64,000 bases of DNA from Polaribacter sp. SA4-12 (GTDB lineage Bacteria; Bacteroidota; Bacteroidia; Flavobacteriales; Flavobacteriaceae), in NCBI RefSeq assembly GCF_002163675.1, contig NZ_CP019334.1, positions 3,887,501 through 3,951,500 on the forward strand. Reading direction: 5' to 3'. Shown here one piece after another: positions 38,609-45,583 of this stretch. The notes below the pieces were generated by a model that saw nothing but the letters and a program-made list of their open reading frames with translations, did no database searches and was not told the origin of the DNA. A program made the position numbers and the translations under genes. How positions within the stretch are numbered: the stretch's first letter is position 1; each line of letters begins with the position of its first letter.

Positions 38609-39523
38609 ATGTTAAAACTAAATATTAAAAACGAAACTTCAAGATTAAGAGCCGTAATTTTAGGAACAGCACAAAGTAATGGAAGTGTTCCTAAAGTAGA
38701 AGATTGTTACGACCCTAAGAGTGTTGAGCATGTTTTATCTGGTACGTATCCTAAAGAGGAAGATATGATTTTAGAAATGGAAGCTTTAGCTGCCGTTTTT
38801 AAAAAATATAATGTTCAGGTTTTTAGACCAGAAGTAATTGAGAATTATAATCAAATATTTTCTAGAGATATTGCTTTTGTAATTGATGACATCTTTATTG
38901 AAGCTAATATTCTTCCTGATAGAGAAAGGGAATATAAAGCTCTAGGAGAAATAATTTATCAAATAGATCCAGAAAAGGTTGTTGTTTTACCAGAAGAATG
39001 TCATGTAGAAGGTGGTGATGTTATGCCTTGGAATGATTATCTTTTTATTGGAACTTATTCTGGTAGTGATTATGCAGATTATATAACTGCACGTACAAAT
39101 ATTGATGCAGTAATTGCTTTACAAGAATTATTTCCTAATAAAAAAGTTAAGTCTTTTGAATTAAGAAAATCGAATACGAATGCAAAAGAAAACGCATTGC
39201 ATTTAGATTGTTGTTTTCAGCCTATAGGAAAAGATAAAGCAATTCTTCATAAAAACGGTTTTTTAGTTGAAAGTGAATATGAATGGCTGGTTAATTTCTT
39301 CGGAAAAGAAAATGTTTTTGAAATTACGAAAGAAGAAATGTACAATATGAATAGTAACGTTTTTTCAATTTCTGAGGAAGTTATCATTTCAGAAAAAAAC
39401 TTTATTAGATTAAACACATGGTTAAGAAATAATGGCTTTACTGTAGAAGAAGTTCCTTATGCTGAAATAGCCAAACAAGAAGGTTTATTACGCTGTTCTA
39501 CTTTACCATTGATAAGAGATTAA
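38609..39523 (+). CDS. arginine deiminase / dimethylarginine dimethylaminohydrolase-like enzyme
   Basis: 304 residues of the guanidino-group-modifying (pentein) fold. Members hydrolyse or transfer groups on arginine derivatives. The catalytic set is visible: acidic motif in EECHVEGGDVMPWND (about 131-145), His in ENALHLDCCFQPIG (about 198) and the C-terminal nucleophile Cys in LLRCSTLPLIRD (about 297). Flavobacteria often carry this gene beside citrate synthase. Substrate is not fixed by the sequence: arginine, citrulline precursors or methylated arginines are options. A 16-bp stem-loop lies 77 bp downstream. Confidence 0.82.
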   Translation: MLKLNIKNETSRLRAVILGTAQSNGSVPKVEDCYDPKSVEHVLSGTYPKEEDMILEMEALAAVFKKYNVQVFRPEVIENYNQIFSRDIAFVIDDIFIEANILPDREREYKALGEIIYQIDPEKVVVLPEECHVEGGDVMPWNDYLFIGTYSGSDYADYITARTNIDAVIALQELFPNKKVKSFELRKSNTNAKENALHLDCCFQPIGKDKAILHKNGFLVESEYEWLVNFFGKENVFEITKEEMYNMNSNVFSISEEVIISEKNFIRLNTWLRNNGFTVEEVPYAEIAKQEGLLRCSTLPLIRD

Positions 39524-39697: not shown

Positions 39698-39716
39698 CAA
39701 CGCTTATCATCAATCA
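39698..39716 (+). repeat. direct repeat B, left copy
   Basis: CAACGCTTATCATCAATCA, followed by an A-run and ACT, ending at the stop codon of the large glycosyltransferase gene. It recurs with one mismatch at 45565-45583. Confidence 0.5.
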
Positions 39717-39725
39717 TAAAAAAAA

Positions 39726-42700
39726 CTATTCATCAATCCATCCTATGATCGCATTGGCTACAAAACGAGGTTCTGGGGGCAATGAATAAATGTCTTTTTC
39801 ATAATTTTTATTATAAGGTGAAATATTCATAATCGTATCATCTACAACTAAAGTGCTACTTCCTCCAGGATCAAATCCCATCGCTTTTTCCATTCCGTAT
39901 TTTAAAAGAATGTCTACCATGTCAAAATGTGTCGCTCCCACCGATTCTCTTATTCGACCGTTTACCATAAGTACCATAAGTTTACCTTCTTTTGTAATAC
40001 CAACCGCTATTTTAGGTCCACGCATATCTGTAAAATCTAATCTAGCTGCTTGTGTTTTAATTGAGTTAGATGTTTTCCAGCCTTCATTCTCCATATTTAA
40101 AATTTGTTTTCCACCATCAATTAGCATTGGTCCAGCTTCAATTGCATATGATATTTCATTCCAATTATAAGGATTGGTTTCGGGTTCTAATAACTGAATA
40201 TCTAATGGAATTCCTTCTGCAAAAACATCTTTAGAAAACAAAGAAGAAGGTATCGATAACGTGATTCCTACCGGTATAACAGGCACCGTTTCATTTACTT
40301 TCGTATTAATAATTTGCTTTACTGTATTTCCTGCTATTCTTATAATAACATTTCCATTTCCTTTTATGGTTTCTTCGGTATAAGATAAGTCATAAAAACA
40401 AGGTTCTGTAATACTATGTTTATTATAGTAACTAGAAGAAAATACTAGATTTTTTTGTTTACTTTTTATAATAAACCCTGCTTTGCTGTTTACTTTTCTG
40501 ATATCTACATCACCATTTTTATAGATAATAAAAGCAGGTTTGTTAAAAAGTGGTGGACAAAAGACTTTATTATTCATAATTAATAATCCTAAAGGAGACC
40601 CAATGTACGTTTCTGGCAAACCTAGTTTTCCAACCAATTCAGGATTTAAGATATAACCACCATTCCAAGCTAATTCAATTTTATTAGGATTTTTGCTTTT
40701 CTTTTGATATTCCTTGATGAGTGCAGGGACATTTTTAGGTTCTTTATTGGCAATATGTGCTGCAAACTTCCATTTGTGTTGCTTGGTGTCAATTTCGGCT
40801 AATACACCGCTCCAAGGTAATCCATCTTCATAGACGCCTCCAGCAAAGGATGATTTTACTTTTTCTACAGTTTTGGTTTCTTTTAAACTGTCATTTATTT
40901 GTTCTAATAGCTTCGCGATAGGAGTTCCGTTTTCAATAGCATCTTTAGAAATAAGTTGCAATAATTTTTTTTCTCCAAGTTTGTCTTTAAGTGTTTTGCA
41001 TAAATCACTTTTTAAAACTGTATCAAAATCTTTAGCAGTTTGAATAGGAGTTGGAAAAGCTAATGTAGTTCTTACTGCTGCTGGTACAAACTGAATAAAT
41101 CCACTATCTTTTGGGATTCCCATTATTTTGGAAGTCATTGTATGTAATACTTTTCCAATATGAAAATGATCTATTTCTATAATATCAGTCATCATTGCGG
41201 CATACTCGCCATTGGTGATTATAAAACCATTTGCTTCCTTAATATCTCGTAAAATCTTAATAGCTTTTTCTCCCATTTGCGGGAAATGGACACCTTCTGA
41301 CCATTGTTTCGTTTCTATGATTTGAACAACACCAGTTTTAAATAATAAACCTAATTCTGGCTCTTTTCCACTTTCTAAATATTCTTTAATATTGGCATTG
41401 GAAAACCATTTTGTAATTCTTGGCTCGTGAATAAATATATAGATTTTTTCTAATTCTTGTACTTTATCTTTAAGTACTTCCTCCGTAAGTTCTTCTTCAA
41501 TTTTAAGTTTTAGTTGGGCACGAATAGGTTGTAATACAAAATATTCTAACTCATGTTTAATGTATCGCCCAGGGAAATATCCTTTTGGAACATTGTTTTT
41601 TAATTTTTCTGTTAAAATTTTTCTATCATCAATTCCTAAAAACTTACTATTTGTCAATTGAAATAATGCCAATTCCCAATCAGCAAAAAATTGTGGTGCC
41701 AAGGTTAAATCGGGTAGATGTTCTGGTTTAAAAACATCGCTATAAATCATATTTACCAAACCTGTTACTTCTTGATATGTAAATTGTTGATAAGCAAATT
41801 TCTTTTTATTTCTATGTCTGTATGATAAGGCATGATCATGTCTTATTGTAAGCTCTCCATCAACATGTTTAAAAATATCATCAATGGCATTATAATAAGT
41901 ATGTATAAGTTCTAAATCGGTGTTTACCAAGTCTGGAATATCATTTTCCATCATTCTGGCATAATTCATTACTTTTCCTTTTATGAGTTGTTCTTCTACT
42001 CTAAAAAAACTTGGATCAATCAAAGATTTTAAATAGGTCATAAATGCCAATCTTCCATAACCGGGTAAATAATGTCTCGTTTTTTTATTAAGAATAGCAT
42101 GTAAATCTTCATTTTCGAAATTTACCATGTTTTTGTATTCTTCTAATAAACTAACCACTTGTGAGTTCACTTCATTAGAAATAGCCCCTAATTGCAAATG
42201 CATTCTTCCTAGAATATATTGCATGTTTTTTTGTAGCGCTTCTATACTGTAACGTTTATTTATAACGCTTCTGTTATGTGTAACATCTACCATTCTGTTT
42301 TGAGGATAAAACACGTGATCACATATTTTTTCAGCCAATTGTTTCGGAACTTTAGAACCTTTAAATTCTAAAACATTTAAACGTAAAGATGCATCTAAAT
42401 GGCGACCGATAACTTCATCATAAACTTCTCTTGGCTCGTATTGTCTACAAAATATTGGAGTTCCACAAGCTGCAGCTTCTATAATTGGCAAACCTCTTCC
42501 TTCGGTCTGACTTGGTAATAAAATTAAAGAAGCAACATCATATAGTTGCTCAATATCTAATGGTTTTTTGTGTTTTTTCTTAAAATCATTTTTATCAAAT
42601 TCACTAAATAAAAATCCAAGTAGTACTCTGGATTTGAATTCCTTTGGAAGGTCTTTTAGGAAGTTTTTAAAGTCTTTTTTTAAGTCGTGATAATAATTCT

Positions 42701-43919
42701 GTTGACCATGAGGAATAGGTCCTGAAACAATTAAAGAAAGTTTTAATTGTGGATTTGTAAGAAATTTTTCTGCAAATGAATCGTAAGAAAATAAGCGTTT
42801 AATAAGTTTAAAATTTAGCTCAATAGATTTTCTGCTGATAACTCGTGTTGGTTGTAAAAAAACAATGTTATTATTTACAAAATCAAAATTTTGAACGGTT
42901 TTGTAACCAAACAATATAGGTTTTAATGATCGTTCACTTGTAGTATGATCTGCAACTTTGTGTACGGTTATTGTCTCTTTTTTATTTGCAAAAATAGTAG
43001 AAACTTGCATAAACGCTTTGATAATATCACGCTTACTCATTTGGTGCATTTTGGTATCTACCGCTGTTCCTAACAAAGCAACATTTGCAGGATTATGACC
43101 ATTGATATCTATCAGGTGGTTTTGTTGAATTTTATTGATGTTTACATTCATCCAAGAACGACTTTCCCATGGATATATCGTTTCAATAAGAGAGAAGAAT
43201 TCACCAACATGTGCATTGTGAAAAAAGAAATCTCTTGGTCCTTTTTTGAGACCTTTCTGTTTAATATCTACGGTTCTATTACCACCTTCCCAATAAAAAT
43301 CATGGTTATTATTAATAACTGGAATTCCTAAATATTCAGAAATTAGAACAGTAGCCAAAGCCAAAGAAACATTACCTGGGTTGGAACAAACGTTGATTAA
43401 ATACAAGACAGAAATATCATTTTCTTCAATATAACTTCCTAATTTTTCTACAAGAACTAACACTTCTTTCCAAAACTTACCAATAAGATTATTGTACTCG
43501 GTACTACCGCGTTCCATTTTAATTCTAAAAAAATCATCGTATAATGGCCACGCATCAAAAGCTTCCATTTCTGGGATTACTTTTCTAAAGGCATCTTTTG
43601 GAATTAGCTCATCGGCTTCTTGCTTTATATCCCCAGCTACAAAATGAATGGGAATATTGGGATAAAGACTCTTAAAAGTCTTGGCGTATTTTTCAGTTTC
43701 GACTGTAATACCATCTATAGTAAAGTAAAAAGTTAAAAAAGCGATTCCTCCTTTTTCTAATTGCGTATCGAAGGATTTCTTATCTCCTTTAAAAGCCGAT
43801 TTGGAACTTTGTTCTTTAAATTTATCAATAAATAGTCCTAAATCAAACCAAGTATTTATTTTTTCATTTTTTAGTTCTTTTAATATGTTTGAAATTTTTG
43901 CTCTTTTTGTATTCGTCAT
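39726..43919 (-). CDS. GT4-type glycosyltransferase fused to a phosphodiester glycosidase domain
   Basis: 1397 residues, no signal peptide, so cytoplasmic. Residues ~60-560 are a GT-B glycosyltransferase: an N-terminal half with NNNHDFYWEGGNR (about 205) and a C-terminal half with QPTRVISRKSIE and the nucleotide-sugar motif EGRGLPIIEAAACGTPI (about 479-495, the E-x7-E of GT4). Residues ~560-1050 are mostly helical with no recognised family. Residues ~1080-1395 match phosphodiester glycosidase (NAGPA/DUF2233-like) domains: WNGGYILN, GPMLIDGGK, KIAVGITKEGKLMVLMVNGR and the signature GFDPGGSSTLVV (about 1345). NAGPA enzymes remove a sugar from a phosphodiester. The fusion suggests one protein that both adds and trims sugars on a phosphate-linked glycan; this is inference. 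It follows a smaller glycosyltransferase sharing the HDF-WE motif. Confidence 0.85.
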   Translation of the reverse strand: MTNTKRAKISNILKELKNEKINTWFDLGLFIDKFKEQSSKSAFKGDKKSFDTQLEKGGIAFLTFYFTIDGITVETEKYAKTFKSLYPNIPIHFVAGDIKQEADELIPKDAFRKVIPEMEAFDAWPLYDDFFRIKMERGSTEYNNLIGKFWKEVLVLVEKLGSYIEENDISVLYLINVCSNPGNVSLALATVLISEYLGIPVINNNHDFYWEGGNRTVDIKQKGLKKGPRDFFFHNAHVGEFFSLIETIYPWESRSWMNVNINKIQQNHLIDINGHNPANVALLGTAVDTKMHQMSKRDIIKAFMQVSTIFANKKETITVHKVADHTTSERSLKPILFGYKTVQNFDFVNNNIVFLQPTRVISRKSIELNFKLIKRLFSYDSFAEKFLTNPQLKLSLIVSGPIPHGQQNYYHDLKKDFKNFLKDLPKEFKSRVLLGFLFSEFDKNDFKKKHKKPLDIEQLYDVASLILLPSQTEGRGLPIIEAAACGTPIFCRQYEPREVYDEVIGRHLDASLRLNVLEFKGSKVPKQLAEKICDHVFYPQNRMVDVTHNRSVINKRYSIEALQKNMQYILGRMHLQLGAISNEVNSQVVSLLEEYKNMVNFENEDLHAILNKKTRHYLPGYGRLAFMTYLKSLIDPSFFRVEEQLIKGKVMNYARMMENDIPDLVNTDLELIHTYYNAIDDIFKHVDGELTIRHDHALSYRHRNKKKFAYQQFTYQEVTGLVNMIYSDVFKPEHLPDLTLAPQFFADWELALFQLTNSKFLGIDDRKILTEKLKNNVPKGYFPGRYIKHELEYFVLQPIRAQLKLKIEEELTEEVLKDKVQELEKIYIFIHEPRITKWFSNANIKEYLESGKEPELGLLFKTGVVQIIETKQWSEGVHFPQMGEKAIKILRDIKEANGFIITNGEYAAMMTDIIEIDHFHIGKVLHTMTSKIMGIPKDSGFIQFVPAAVRTTLAFPTPIQTAKDFDTVLKSDLCKTLKDKLGEKKLLQLISKDAIENGTPIAKLLEQINDSLKETKTVEKVKSSFAGGVYEDGLPWSGVLAEIDTKQHKWKFAAHIANKEPKNVPALIKEYQKKSKNPNKIELAWNGGYILNPELVGKLGLPETYIGSPLGLLIMNNKVFCPPLFNKPAFIIYKNGDVDIRKVNSKAGFIIKSKQKNLVFSSSYYNKHSITEPCFYDLSYTEETIKGNGNVIIRIAGNTVKQIINTKVNETVPVIPVGITLSIPSSLFSKDVFAEGIPLDIQLLEPETNPYNWNEISYAIEAGPMLIDGGKQILNMENEGWKTSNSIKTQAARLDFTDMRGPKIAVGITKEGKLMVLMVNGRIRESVGATHFDMVDILLKYGMEKAMGFDPGGSSTLVVDDTIMNISPYNKNYEKDIYSLPPEPRFVANAIIGWIDE

Positions 43920-43964
43920 TTAAAGTTTTTGAAATTCTTACTGTTTTAATTGTTCTTTAGTTTC

Positions 43965-45209
43965 TTAAAATGTAAATAGGCTAGTTAATTTTTCTTCAAG
44001 TACATCATATGAGAAATATTTTTTACCAAGGTTAAAGTTATATTCTCCAATTTCTAAACATAATTTTGGATTATAAATGATGTTGGACATTTGTTTTATC
44101 TTTTCATTCGTTAGAATACCGTCTTCCGTCATAACGGTTTCAAAACCTTTATTACCGATGTCTTGCATGTATACAGGTTTGTAATTATTTACAAATATTG
44201 GTTTTTTTGCAAGTACAGATTCTACAAAAGCATTTCCAAAACCTTCGTAAGTACTAAAATAAGTACACGCTCTACCGTGTGCATAAACATCCGATAGATC
44301 TTTATGGTCTAATACTTTGTGTGCTGCAAATATTACTTGATTGGATAGATTCAAATCGTGAATTTGATCGATCAACTCATTATAATATTCTTTGTTTTCA
44401 TCATCATTATTATTTCCAGTAATAACCAATTTTAGTTTCTTATCATCTAGTTTGTCAATTAATGAAATAGCAGTTTCAATACCTTTACGTCTTACAATAC
44501 GTGTAACTTGTAATAATGCAATTTCATCTTCTGTAACTCCTATATCTCTAAGGAAGAATTGGTTTTCTGGAGTTGGAACACCATAAACACGATTAAAATC
44601 CATAACATTGGGTACCAAAGTAGCATCAATATTAAACCTGTTTTTAAACGTTTCTACTCCAAAAGTATTAATGACAGCGTGTTTTACATTTGGCAGTAAC
44701 AATGGAAAGTTATCATCTACATATTGGTTGATTTCTGGGTGAACCGAAACATAACGTTCACCGCGTTCCCAATGAAAATCATGATCGTGTGTTACAATAG
44801 GTAAATCAGTTTCTAAAATCAGTTTTTTAATTGCAACTCCCATGGATAAATGACAGGGTAATGCTGAAGCATTTTCTGAAAGTATAGCTTCAATTTTTTT
44901 ATCCGAAACCCATTGCAACATTGCTTGGTAAATTATGTTAGAAGCATTTTCAACATGCTCTAGTAATGGTTCTGGGTCTTTATCGGGTTCGTAAAATGCT
45001 TTACGCTGTCCCCATTCAGCTTCCACCGAAAAAAAAGATAAAGCTGGATAAAGATAGTGATGTTCATAATCCATGTTCCAAGACTCAAATTCTCCGGACA
45101 TTATAAACACTTCATGACCTAGTTTTTTTAATATATCAATCCATTTTTCTGTTTCAAGCGCTACACCATCAACACCGCCTATTCTTCCAATAATAATACC
45201 TATTCGCAT
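43965..45209 (-). CDS. GT4 family glycosyltransferase
   Basis: 414 residues, soluble GT-B fold. The N-terminus has IIGRIGGVDGVALETEKW (glycine-rich acceptor/donor loop), the middle THDHDFHWERGERY (about 141-154), and the C-terminal donor domain QVTRIVRRKGIETAISLIDKL with TYEGFGNAFVESVLAKKPIF (E-x7-E motif, about 320-339). The HDF-WE-G-R motif is shared with the 1397-residue protein directly downstream, so the two probably use related acceptors or donors in one pathway. Only 45 bp separate them. No acceptor synthesis, export or polymerase genes are adjacent. Confidence 0.88.
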   Translation of the reverse strand: MRIGIIIGRIGGVDGVALETEKWIDILKKLGHEVFIMSGEFESWNMDYEHHYLYPALSFFSVEAEWGQRKAFYEPDKDPEPLLEHVENASNIIYQAMLQWVSDKKIEAILSENASALPCHLSMGVAIKKLILETDLPIVTHDHDFHWERGERYVSVHPEINQYVDDNFPLLLPNVKHAVINTFGVETFKNRFNIDATLVPNVMDFNRVYGVPTPENQFFLRDIGVTEDEIALLQVTRIVRRKGIETAISLIDKLDDKKLKLVITGNNNDDENKEYYNELIDQIHDLNLSNQVIFAAHKVLDHKDLSDVYAHGRACTYFSTYEGFGNAFVESVLAKKPIFVNNYKPVYMQDIGNKGFETVMTEDGILTNEKIKQMSNIIYNPKLCLEIGEYNFNLGKKYFSYDVLEEKLTSLFTF

Positions 45210-45564: not shown

Positions 45565-45583
45565 CAACGCCTATCATCAATCA
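45565..45583 (+). repeat. direct repeat B, right copy
   Basis: CAACGCCTATCATCAATCA, followed by AAAAAACT; 18 of 19 bases match the left copy at 39698-39716, in the same orientation. Confidence 0.5.

Follow-up and report, generated by a model that had tools for sequence, protein, structure and literature searches.

NAGPA (the uncovering enzyme) and the bacterial DUF2233 proteins belong to the phosphodiester glycosidase family PF09992, and the DUF89/ARMT1 proteins (PF01937; for example, PH1575, At2g17340, and PANK4) are metal-dependent metabolite phosphatases. Mannosylglucosylglycerate synthase (NF041101) is a member of glycosyltransferase family 4 (GT4), and the sucrose- and trehalose-phosphate synthases work in two-step systems with HAD enzymes as phosphatase partners. 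We compared with these enzymes a pair of genes of Polaribacter sp. SA4-12, which lies in a stretch of 64,000 nucleotides of contig NZ_CP019334.1 (hereafter the window, to which all positions refer). The first gene codes for a GT4-type glycosyltransferase (the partner) and the second for a fusion protein in which three folds were assigned from profile matches and a structure model: GT-B, DUF89/ARMT1, and NAGPA. Both open reading frames claimed in a preliminary description of 39726..45209 are present, side by side on the minus strand with 45 bp between them:

43965..45209, minus strand: partner glycosyltransferase of GT4 type, 414 residues, first gene of the module (PF00534 and NF041101 matches, conserved motifs)
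39726..43919, minus strand: three-domain fusion protein, 1397 residues, second gene of the module (open reading frame, long relatives)
42180..43763, minus strand: GT4 domain of GT-B fold in the fusion, residues ~53–580
41028..42119, minus strand: DUF89/ARMT1-fold domain of the fusion, residues ~601–964, its canonical metal aspartates apparently absent (tentative)
39729..40862, minus strand: NAGPA (phosphodiester glycosidase) fold domain of the fusion, residues ~1020–1397, with an altered signature

Compared with NAGPA and the DUF2233 proteins, the fusion has K for R at position 1303, G for N at 1348, and DPGGS for DGGGS, and its NAGPA-fold domain is part of a transferase fusion that shows no obvious export signal. 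The middle domain has the same fold as the DUF89/ARMT1 phosphatases but no sequence or profile match with them. The partner covers nearly the full model of mannosylglucosylglycerate synthase (201.9 bits, E = 1.4e-59), and the fusion matches it with 46.9 bits, both far under the 640-bit cut-off. Because these matches are below the cut-off and NF010496, which we take to be glucosyl-3-phosphoglycerate synthase, passes its own cut-off in none of the nine module genomes examined, the mannosylglucosylglycerate pathway is unsupported. Where the sucrose- and trehalose-phosphate systems have a HAD phosphatase, the fusion instead carries a DUF89 fold plus a NAGPA fold. The individual folds are familiar; searches of an open-access library found no account of the three-domain architecture, of the modified NAGPA signature, of the constant partner, or of the fusion family or gene pair as such, in line with what the preliminary description had supposed.

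We propose that the pair is a self-contained cytosolic module for glycoside synthesis with two reshaped phosphate-handling domains, a reading to which we assign a probability of about 0.42. The fusion family is widespread and strongly conserved, its middle third can now be assigned a fold, and with so strict a pairing to one transferase, the product of the module is directly testable by genetics.

Co-inheritance of the partner and the fusion

A protein search with the fusion gave E ≤ 0.001 in 800 of 7993 scored candidates, and 114 of the 120 relatives listed (65–96% identical) have at least 1391 residues; hence, the architecture is not due to chance. In some cases, pieces of the fusion are listed as separate proteins (P0174 and P0191, P0157 and P0199) on equally long contigs (130,520; 281,712), and natural splitting or frameshifts may therefore occur. 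The best 80 of the 148 relatives found in named genome contigs were kept as loci. With the window they make 81 clustered loci, all of which have the fusion, the 80 having been picked for carrying it. Among 349 genomes drawn from the family, eight have the fusion and the same eight have the partner. A full-length fusion is found in only one of 395 genomes drawn from the phylum, namely that of the window, and 128 others match at E ≤ 0.001 but only partially (best E = 2.2e-14). The hosts include Flavivirga, Winogradskyella, Lutibacter, Lutimonas, Maribacter, Algibacter, Hyunsoonleella, Marinifilum, and many Bacteroidales. Further records are labeled as Calditrichota, KSB1, Planctomycetota, Fermentibacteria, Chlorobiota, Gammaproteobacteria, and DPANN, although metagenome bins may be mislabeled.

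The partner lies in the locus of the fusion in 62 of the 80 relatives, as it does in the window. The fusion is preceded by the partner on the same strand in 44 of the 81 loci (counting the window and L084, where the genes overlap), with no more than 20 bp between the two genes in 30 of 43 such loci, L084 being set apart. In 18 loci, the partner is encoded on the opposite strand at a distance of 1.1–8.2 kb, and in L065 it is downstream of the fusion. Among the 18 genomes that lack it in the locus, the partner is present nearly whole at another site in 11 and in pieces in two, and five have none. The identity matrices of the fusion and the partner correlate with r = 0.96 over 63 loci, the maximum of 1000 permutations being 0.25. 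Partner and fusion form a two-gene module that is co-inherited, and the co-occurrence in other Bacteroidota, which had been raised as a question, is borne out and goes beyond them. The gap of 45 bp in the window compares with 8–14 bp in loci L022–L041, and a 32-nt near-duplication (78%, 40 nt apart; window positions 43876–43947) straddles the junction of the two genes.

As anticipated, the fusion starts with a GT4-type transferase with an E-x7-E motif near residue 480. PF00534 matches residues 453–495 of the fusion (29.3 bits, cut-off 26.4) and residues 223–351 of the partner (60.4 bits). E473-x7-E481 is identical in the 81 aligned fusions, and so are R359, R363, and K364; R237, K242, E322, and E330 are each at least 97% conserved in 63 partners. 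An E-x7-E motif and R/K donor-phosphate residues are typical of GT4 enzymes. The features of a retaining GT4 glycosyltransferase are found as motifs and GT-B fold in the fusion and as motifs in the partner, and, judged by these residues, both transferase centers look intact. The uncommon HDF-WE-G-R motif that had been noticed in both transferases is indeed common to them (HDFYWEGGNR in the fusion, HDFHWERGER in the partner), and residues 1–590 of the fusion are related to the partner (BLASTP, 40 bits, E = 1e-7).

The NAGPA-fold domain and its altered signature

The C-terminal region of the fusion matches PF09992 at residues 1245–1372 with 65.9 bits (cut-off 25, E = 6.8e-18), all 48 family members scanned match this family at E ≤ 0.05, and the structure model gives the domain a phosphodiester glycosidase fold. 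A second NAGPA match at E ≤ 0.001 was sought in this genome, and none was found. N1086-G-G and D1350-P-G-G are present in 80 of the 81 fusions (the remaining row is gapped there), in agreement with the NAGPA-like domain of the preliminary description, with NGG near 1085 and FDPGGSST near 1345. The domain also keeps E1279, G1352-G1353, and R1385.

The signature of the domain was compared with that of 19 other bacterial NAGPA domains (loci L003–L021), which were picked by similarity to the fusion domain and are not a neutral sample. At three positions, a residue identical in 19/19 of these domains is replaced in the fusion: R by K1303, D by N1320, and the first G of DGGGS by P1351. At a fourth, N (18/19) is replaced by G1348. 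K1303, N1320, G1348, and P1351 are without exception in the 80 fusions having letters there. The bacterial signature P-R-[TS]-A / D-G-R / N-[LF]-D-G-G-G-S is accordingly not found in the fusions, which have P1302-K-I, N1320-G-R, and D1350-P-G-G. In two listings of 120 fusion relatives each, DPGGS occurs in 116 and 117 (233/240) and the K/N pair in 117 and 116, the noncounted rows not fitting the search pattern; DGGGS occurs in 0/240. Among the aligned PDB relatives, the position of K1303 is R in 5/5, and the position of N1320 is D in four vertebrate chains and H in the cyanobacterial Slr0280. Asp at this position is therefore not universal in the wider NAGPA family. Residues 1281–1360 are among the most conserved stretches of the fusion (0.72–0.79 identity in 50 distant members).

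These fixed substitutions argue that the domain does not run the standard hydrolysis. The alternative that survives best, although we consider it unlikely, is that the domain hydrolyzes a phosphodiester product while the transferase adds the sugar, as in the editing or remodeling of a phosphoglycan. This would be consistent with the clear PF09992 match and fold, with the conserved N1086-G-G, E1279, D1350, G1352-G1353, and R1385, and with the Asp at the N1320 position not being universal in the wider family. However, letters fixed in 18–19 of the 19 bacterial domains are replaced at all four positions, and at that of K1303 the PDB relatives have R as well. The preliminary description had suggested both a fusion of a transferase with a NAGPA domain and a removal of sugars from phosphodiesters in editing or remodeling. 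The fusion stands, whereas the second suggestion is weakened by K1303, N1320, and P1351, and such a role is possible but not favored. The listed relatives, where they are named, are mostly called "phosphodiester glycosidase family protein" or glycosyltransferase, after the NAGPA or transferase domain alone, and otherwise "hypothetical protein". Because the invariant signature departs from that of the namesake enzymes, the database name may mislead.

The candidate product and the middle domain

As proposed, the module would have two retaining GT4 glycosyltransferases, the partner and the N-terminal fusion domain, acting in succession from nucleotide sugars, on an acceptor that would be a soluble and probably phosphorylated small molecule. 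The DUF89-fold and NAGPA-fold domains, presumably derived from sugar-phosphate and phosphodiester enzymes, would, within the same chain, bind the phosphorylated intermediate or process it, and the NAGPA-fold domain would more likely have changed its reaction (to transfer, or to another ester) than have kept ordinary hydrolysis. Two intact transferases that are kept together, without recurrent export or polymerase neighbors, argue for a small soluble product and two transfers, and the folds, being those of enzymes that bind sugar phosphates or phosphodiesters, suggest that the intermediate is probably phosphorylated. More tentatively, this could be a soluble glycoside synthase of a new class, found in scattered bacteria, in which a retaining transferase, a metal-less DUF89 fold, and a repurposed, nonhydrolytic uncovering-enzyme domain would make, with the second transferase, an undescribed phosphorylated or phosphodiester-derived glycoside. 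The latter could be, for example, an osmolyte or a storage compound; an osmolyte would fit the many fusion-carrying genera that we take to be marine or sediment bacteria, although the single osmolyte pathway examined, that of mannosylglucosylglycerate, is unsupported.

GT4 enzymes are common in the pathways of surface polysaccharides and protein glycosylation, and the pair might belong to such a pathway while being encoded apart from its cluster. The top Foldseek match of the fusion transferase domain is HepE, and weak profile matches include VpsD and exopolysaccharide (EPS) transferases. However, export and polymerase genes do not recur beside the pair (partly judged by eye): none for polysaccharides was noticed in 21 mostly non-Flavobacteriaceae loci, inspected by eye on the first 110 residues. 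Moreover, the pair stays together though its surroundings differ. This explanation seems improbable to us and ranks after phosphodiester hydrolysis.

The middle of the fusion had been described as about 500 residues of unknown helical sequence. Comparison with structure models, which had been recommended, shows instead an alpha/beta domain of about 365 residues with a DUF89/ARMT1 fold. PF01937 is not among the families matched at E ≤ 0.05 by the 48 fusion members, and its search of the own genome gave one stretch of 10.6 bits, outside the fusion. Alignment of the middle domain with 11 PF01937 proteins by hhalign gave no match, and a PDB profile search gave three chance rows only (E 0.36–0.7). 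A search for free-standing forms of the domain gave 61 matches, 41 with a glycosyltransferase or NAGPA Pfam domain and 20 without, several matches being marked partial or lying on short contigs; a free-standing form may exist.

In PANK4, two aspartates of the DUF89 domain, D623 and D659, are essential (PMC9352595). In forced alignments of the C-terminal half, a local run with five sequences (E = 0.34, nonsignificant) sets VRERPVIND, VVSSGS, DLIISKGQGN, and FFILRIKCD opposite four strands of the model. A local run with a larger set repeats the placement of VRERPVIND, DLIISKGQGN, and FFILRIKCD, and the remaining four of the six forced alignments do not. The E = 0.34 register puts P783-G784 and K837-W838 at the DUF89 aspartate motifs; neither 783 nor 784 is acidic in any fusion, and 9/81 fusions have E at 837. 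From this register, with the motifs on model strands, the metal-site aspartates, including the counterparts of those of PANK4, have likely been lost, the register being tentative and others possible. R615, D635, R640, E642, D695, Y700, R701, R703, T714, G876, D912, R950, and Q960 are identical in 81/81 fusions; with such invariant residues, the middle domain is far from decayed. D764, E790, and E792 are present in 77–78 of the 81.

In a third explanation, neither the DUF89-fold nor the NAGPA-fold domain would have catalytic activity, and both would regulate the transferase as pseudo-enzyme scaffolds or sensors. The seemingly missing DUF89 aspartates and the altered NAGPA signature would fit it. 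The invariant residues of the middle domain and the high conservation of the NAGPA part (at 1281–1360) speak against it, as does the possibility that D764, E790, and E792 hold a metal in another arrangement. We judge it doubtful, and less probable than a surface-glycan role.

Several points weigh against a cytosolic glycoside-synthesis module. Among curated enzymes, the closest one, mannosylglucosylglycerate synthase, is matched far below its cut-off, NF010496 is absent above its cut-off from the examined module genomes, and five of the 18 genomes without a partner in the locus show none anywhere. The modeled link of the middle domain to DUF89 is structural only, one of fold and not of function, and both phosphate-type domains have changed typical residues and so may be mere binding or scaffold domains. 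As for the cytosolic site, residues 184–202 of the fusion reach a hydropathy of 1.88, the usual mark for a membrane helix being 1.6; in the structure model, these residues are a helix and a strand of the transferase domain.

Possible movement between genomes, and neighboring genes

The module is flanked by a direct repeat of 19 nt, of which the 3.99-Mb genome has only these two copies (allowing two mismatches or fewer):

45565..45583, minus strand: upstream copy of the 19-nt direct repeat, a possible insertion scar (repeat search)
39698..39716, minus strand: downstream copy of the 19-nt direct repeat (repeat search)

Shuffles of the window lead one to expect 0.02 such repeats, and weaker similarity extends the repeat to about 58 nt. 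Other flanking repeats are found in two Flavivirga loci (L023, L024), and in all, three of 41 tested loci exceed shuffles. In a tree of the fusion (39 chosen rows, quick method), Roseivirga, which we take to belong to a different order, stands beside a metagenome-assembled genome of Flavobacteriaceae within the flavobacterial group, with 97% support in the Shimodaira–Hasegawa-like approximate likelihood ratio test (SH-aLRT). The identities to the window of the fusion, citrate synthase, and SecY, the last two genes being named by eye, are 89, 79, and 66% in G426; 89, 80, and 67% in G640; 87, 79, and 65% in G713; 84, 69, and 70% in G633; 81, 68, and 71% in G418; and 78, 67, and 71% in G533. The fusion is thus more similar than both other proteins in these six one-piece genomes; in G685, it is in two pieces (77 and 74%), with citrate synthase at 76% and SecY at 66%, and seven further distant genomes were left out of the comparison. 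Strong selection could explain part of the excess identity. Together, the tree, the identities, and the flanking repeats suggest movement between genomes, and the evidence for horizontal transfer of the module is suggestive only.

A mobile conflict or defense module is very improbable: the patchy spread (8/349 in the family, 1/395 full-length in the phylum), the flanking repeats in 3/41 loci, and a weak match to a GT4-conflict family (Pfam, 19.5 bits, cut-off 26) would fit it, but neither protein matches a PADLOC family at E = 0.01, the 79 pattern stretches in viral contigs include no fusion relative, no defense neighbors were noted by eye (no search was aimed at them), and the sequence is highly conserved.

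Stress control through a LexA-like gene had also been suggested. This gene is divergent here, about 530 bp away, and a relative of it is found in only one of the 80 other loci (L054, 42%) within the fetched flanks, many of which are short; we therefore rejected it as a part or controller of the module. The LexA-like protein has 13 PADLOC matches, on its helix-turn-helix part. The number of sites in a promoter scan is no higher than in shuffles, and the Bacteroidota promoter pattern has no match in L116.

In the Bacteroidales-type loci (L056–L101), the fusion lies in a recurrent block with HemW, RpiB, an Rrf2-type regulator, a VanZ-like protein, and NadA (names given by eye), where the partner is often beyond HemW on the opposite strand. 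Besides this block and genes common to Winogradskyella species, no neighbor recurs beside the pair, and none was seen by eye around distant members in 21 loci. The following genes were also named by eye. A transporter-like gene (sugar or solute) directly follows the fusion on the same strand in L043, L089, and L090, and a YdcF/DUF218-like gene overlaps the end of the fusion in L053 and L066. In the window, an amidinotransferase- or dimethylargininase-like gene (38609–39523) is convergent to the fusion, 202 bp from it.

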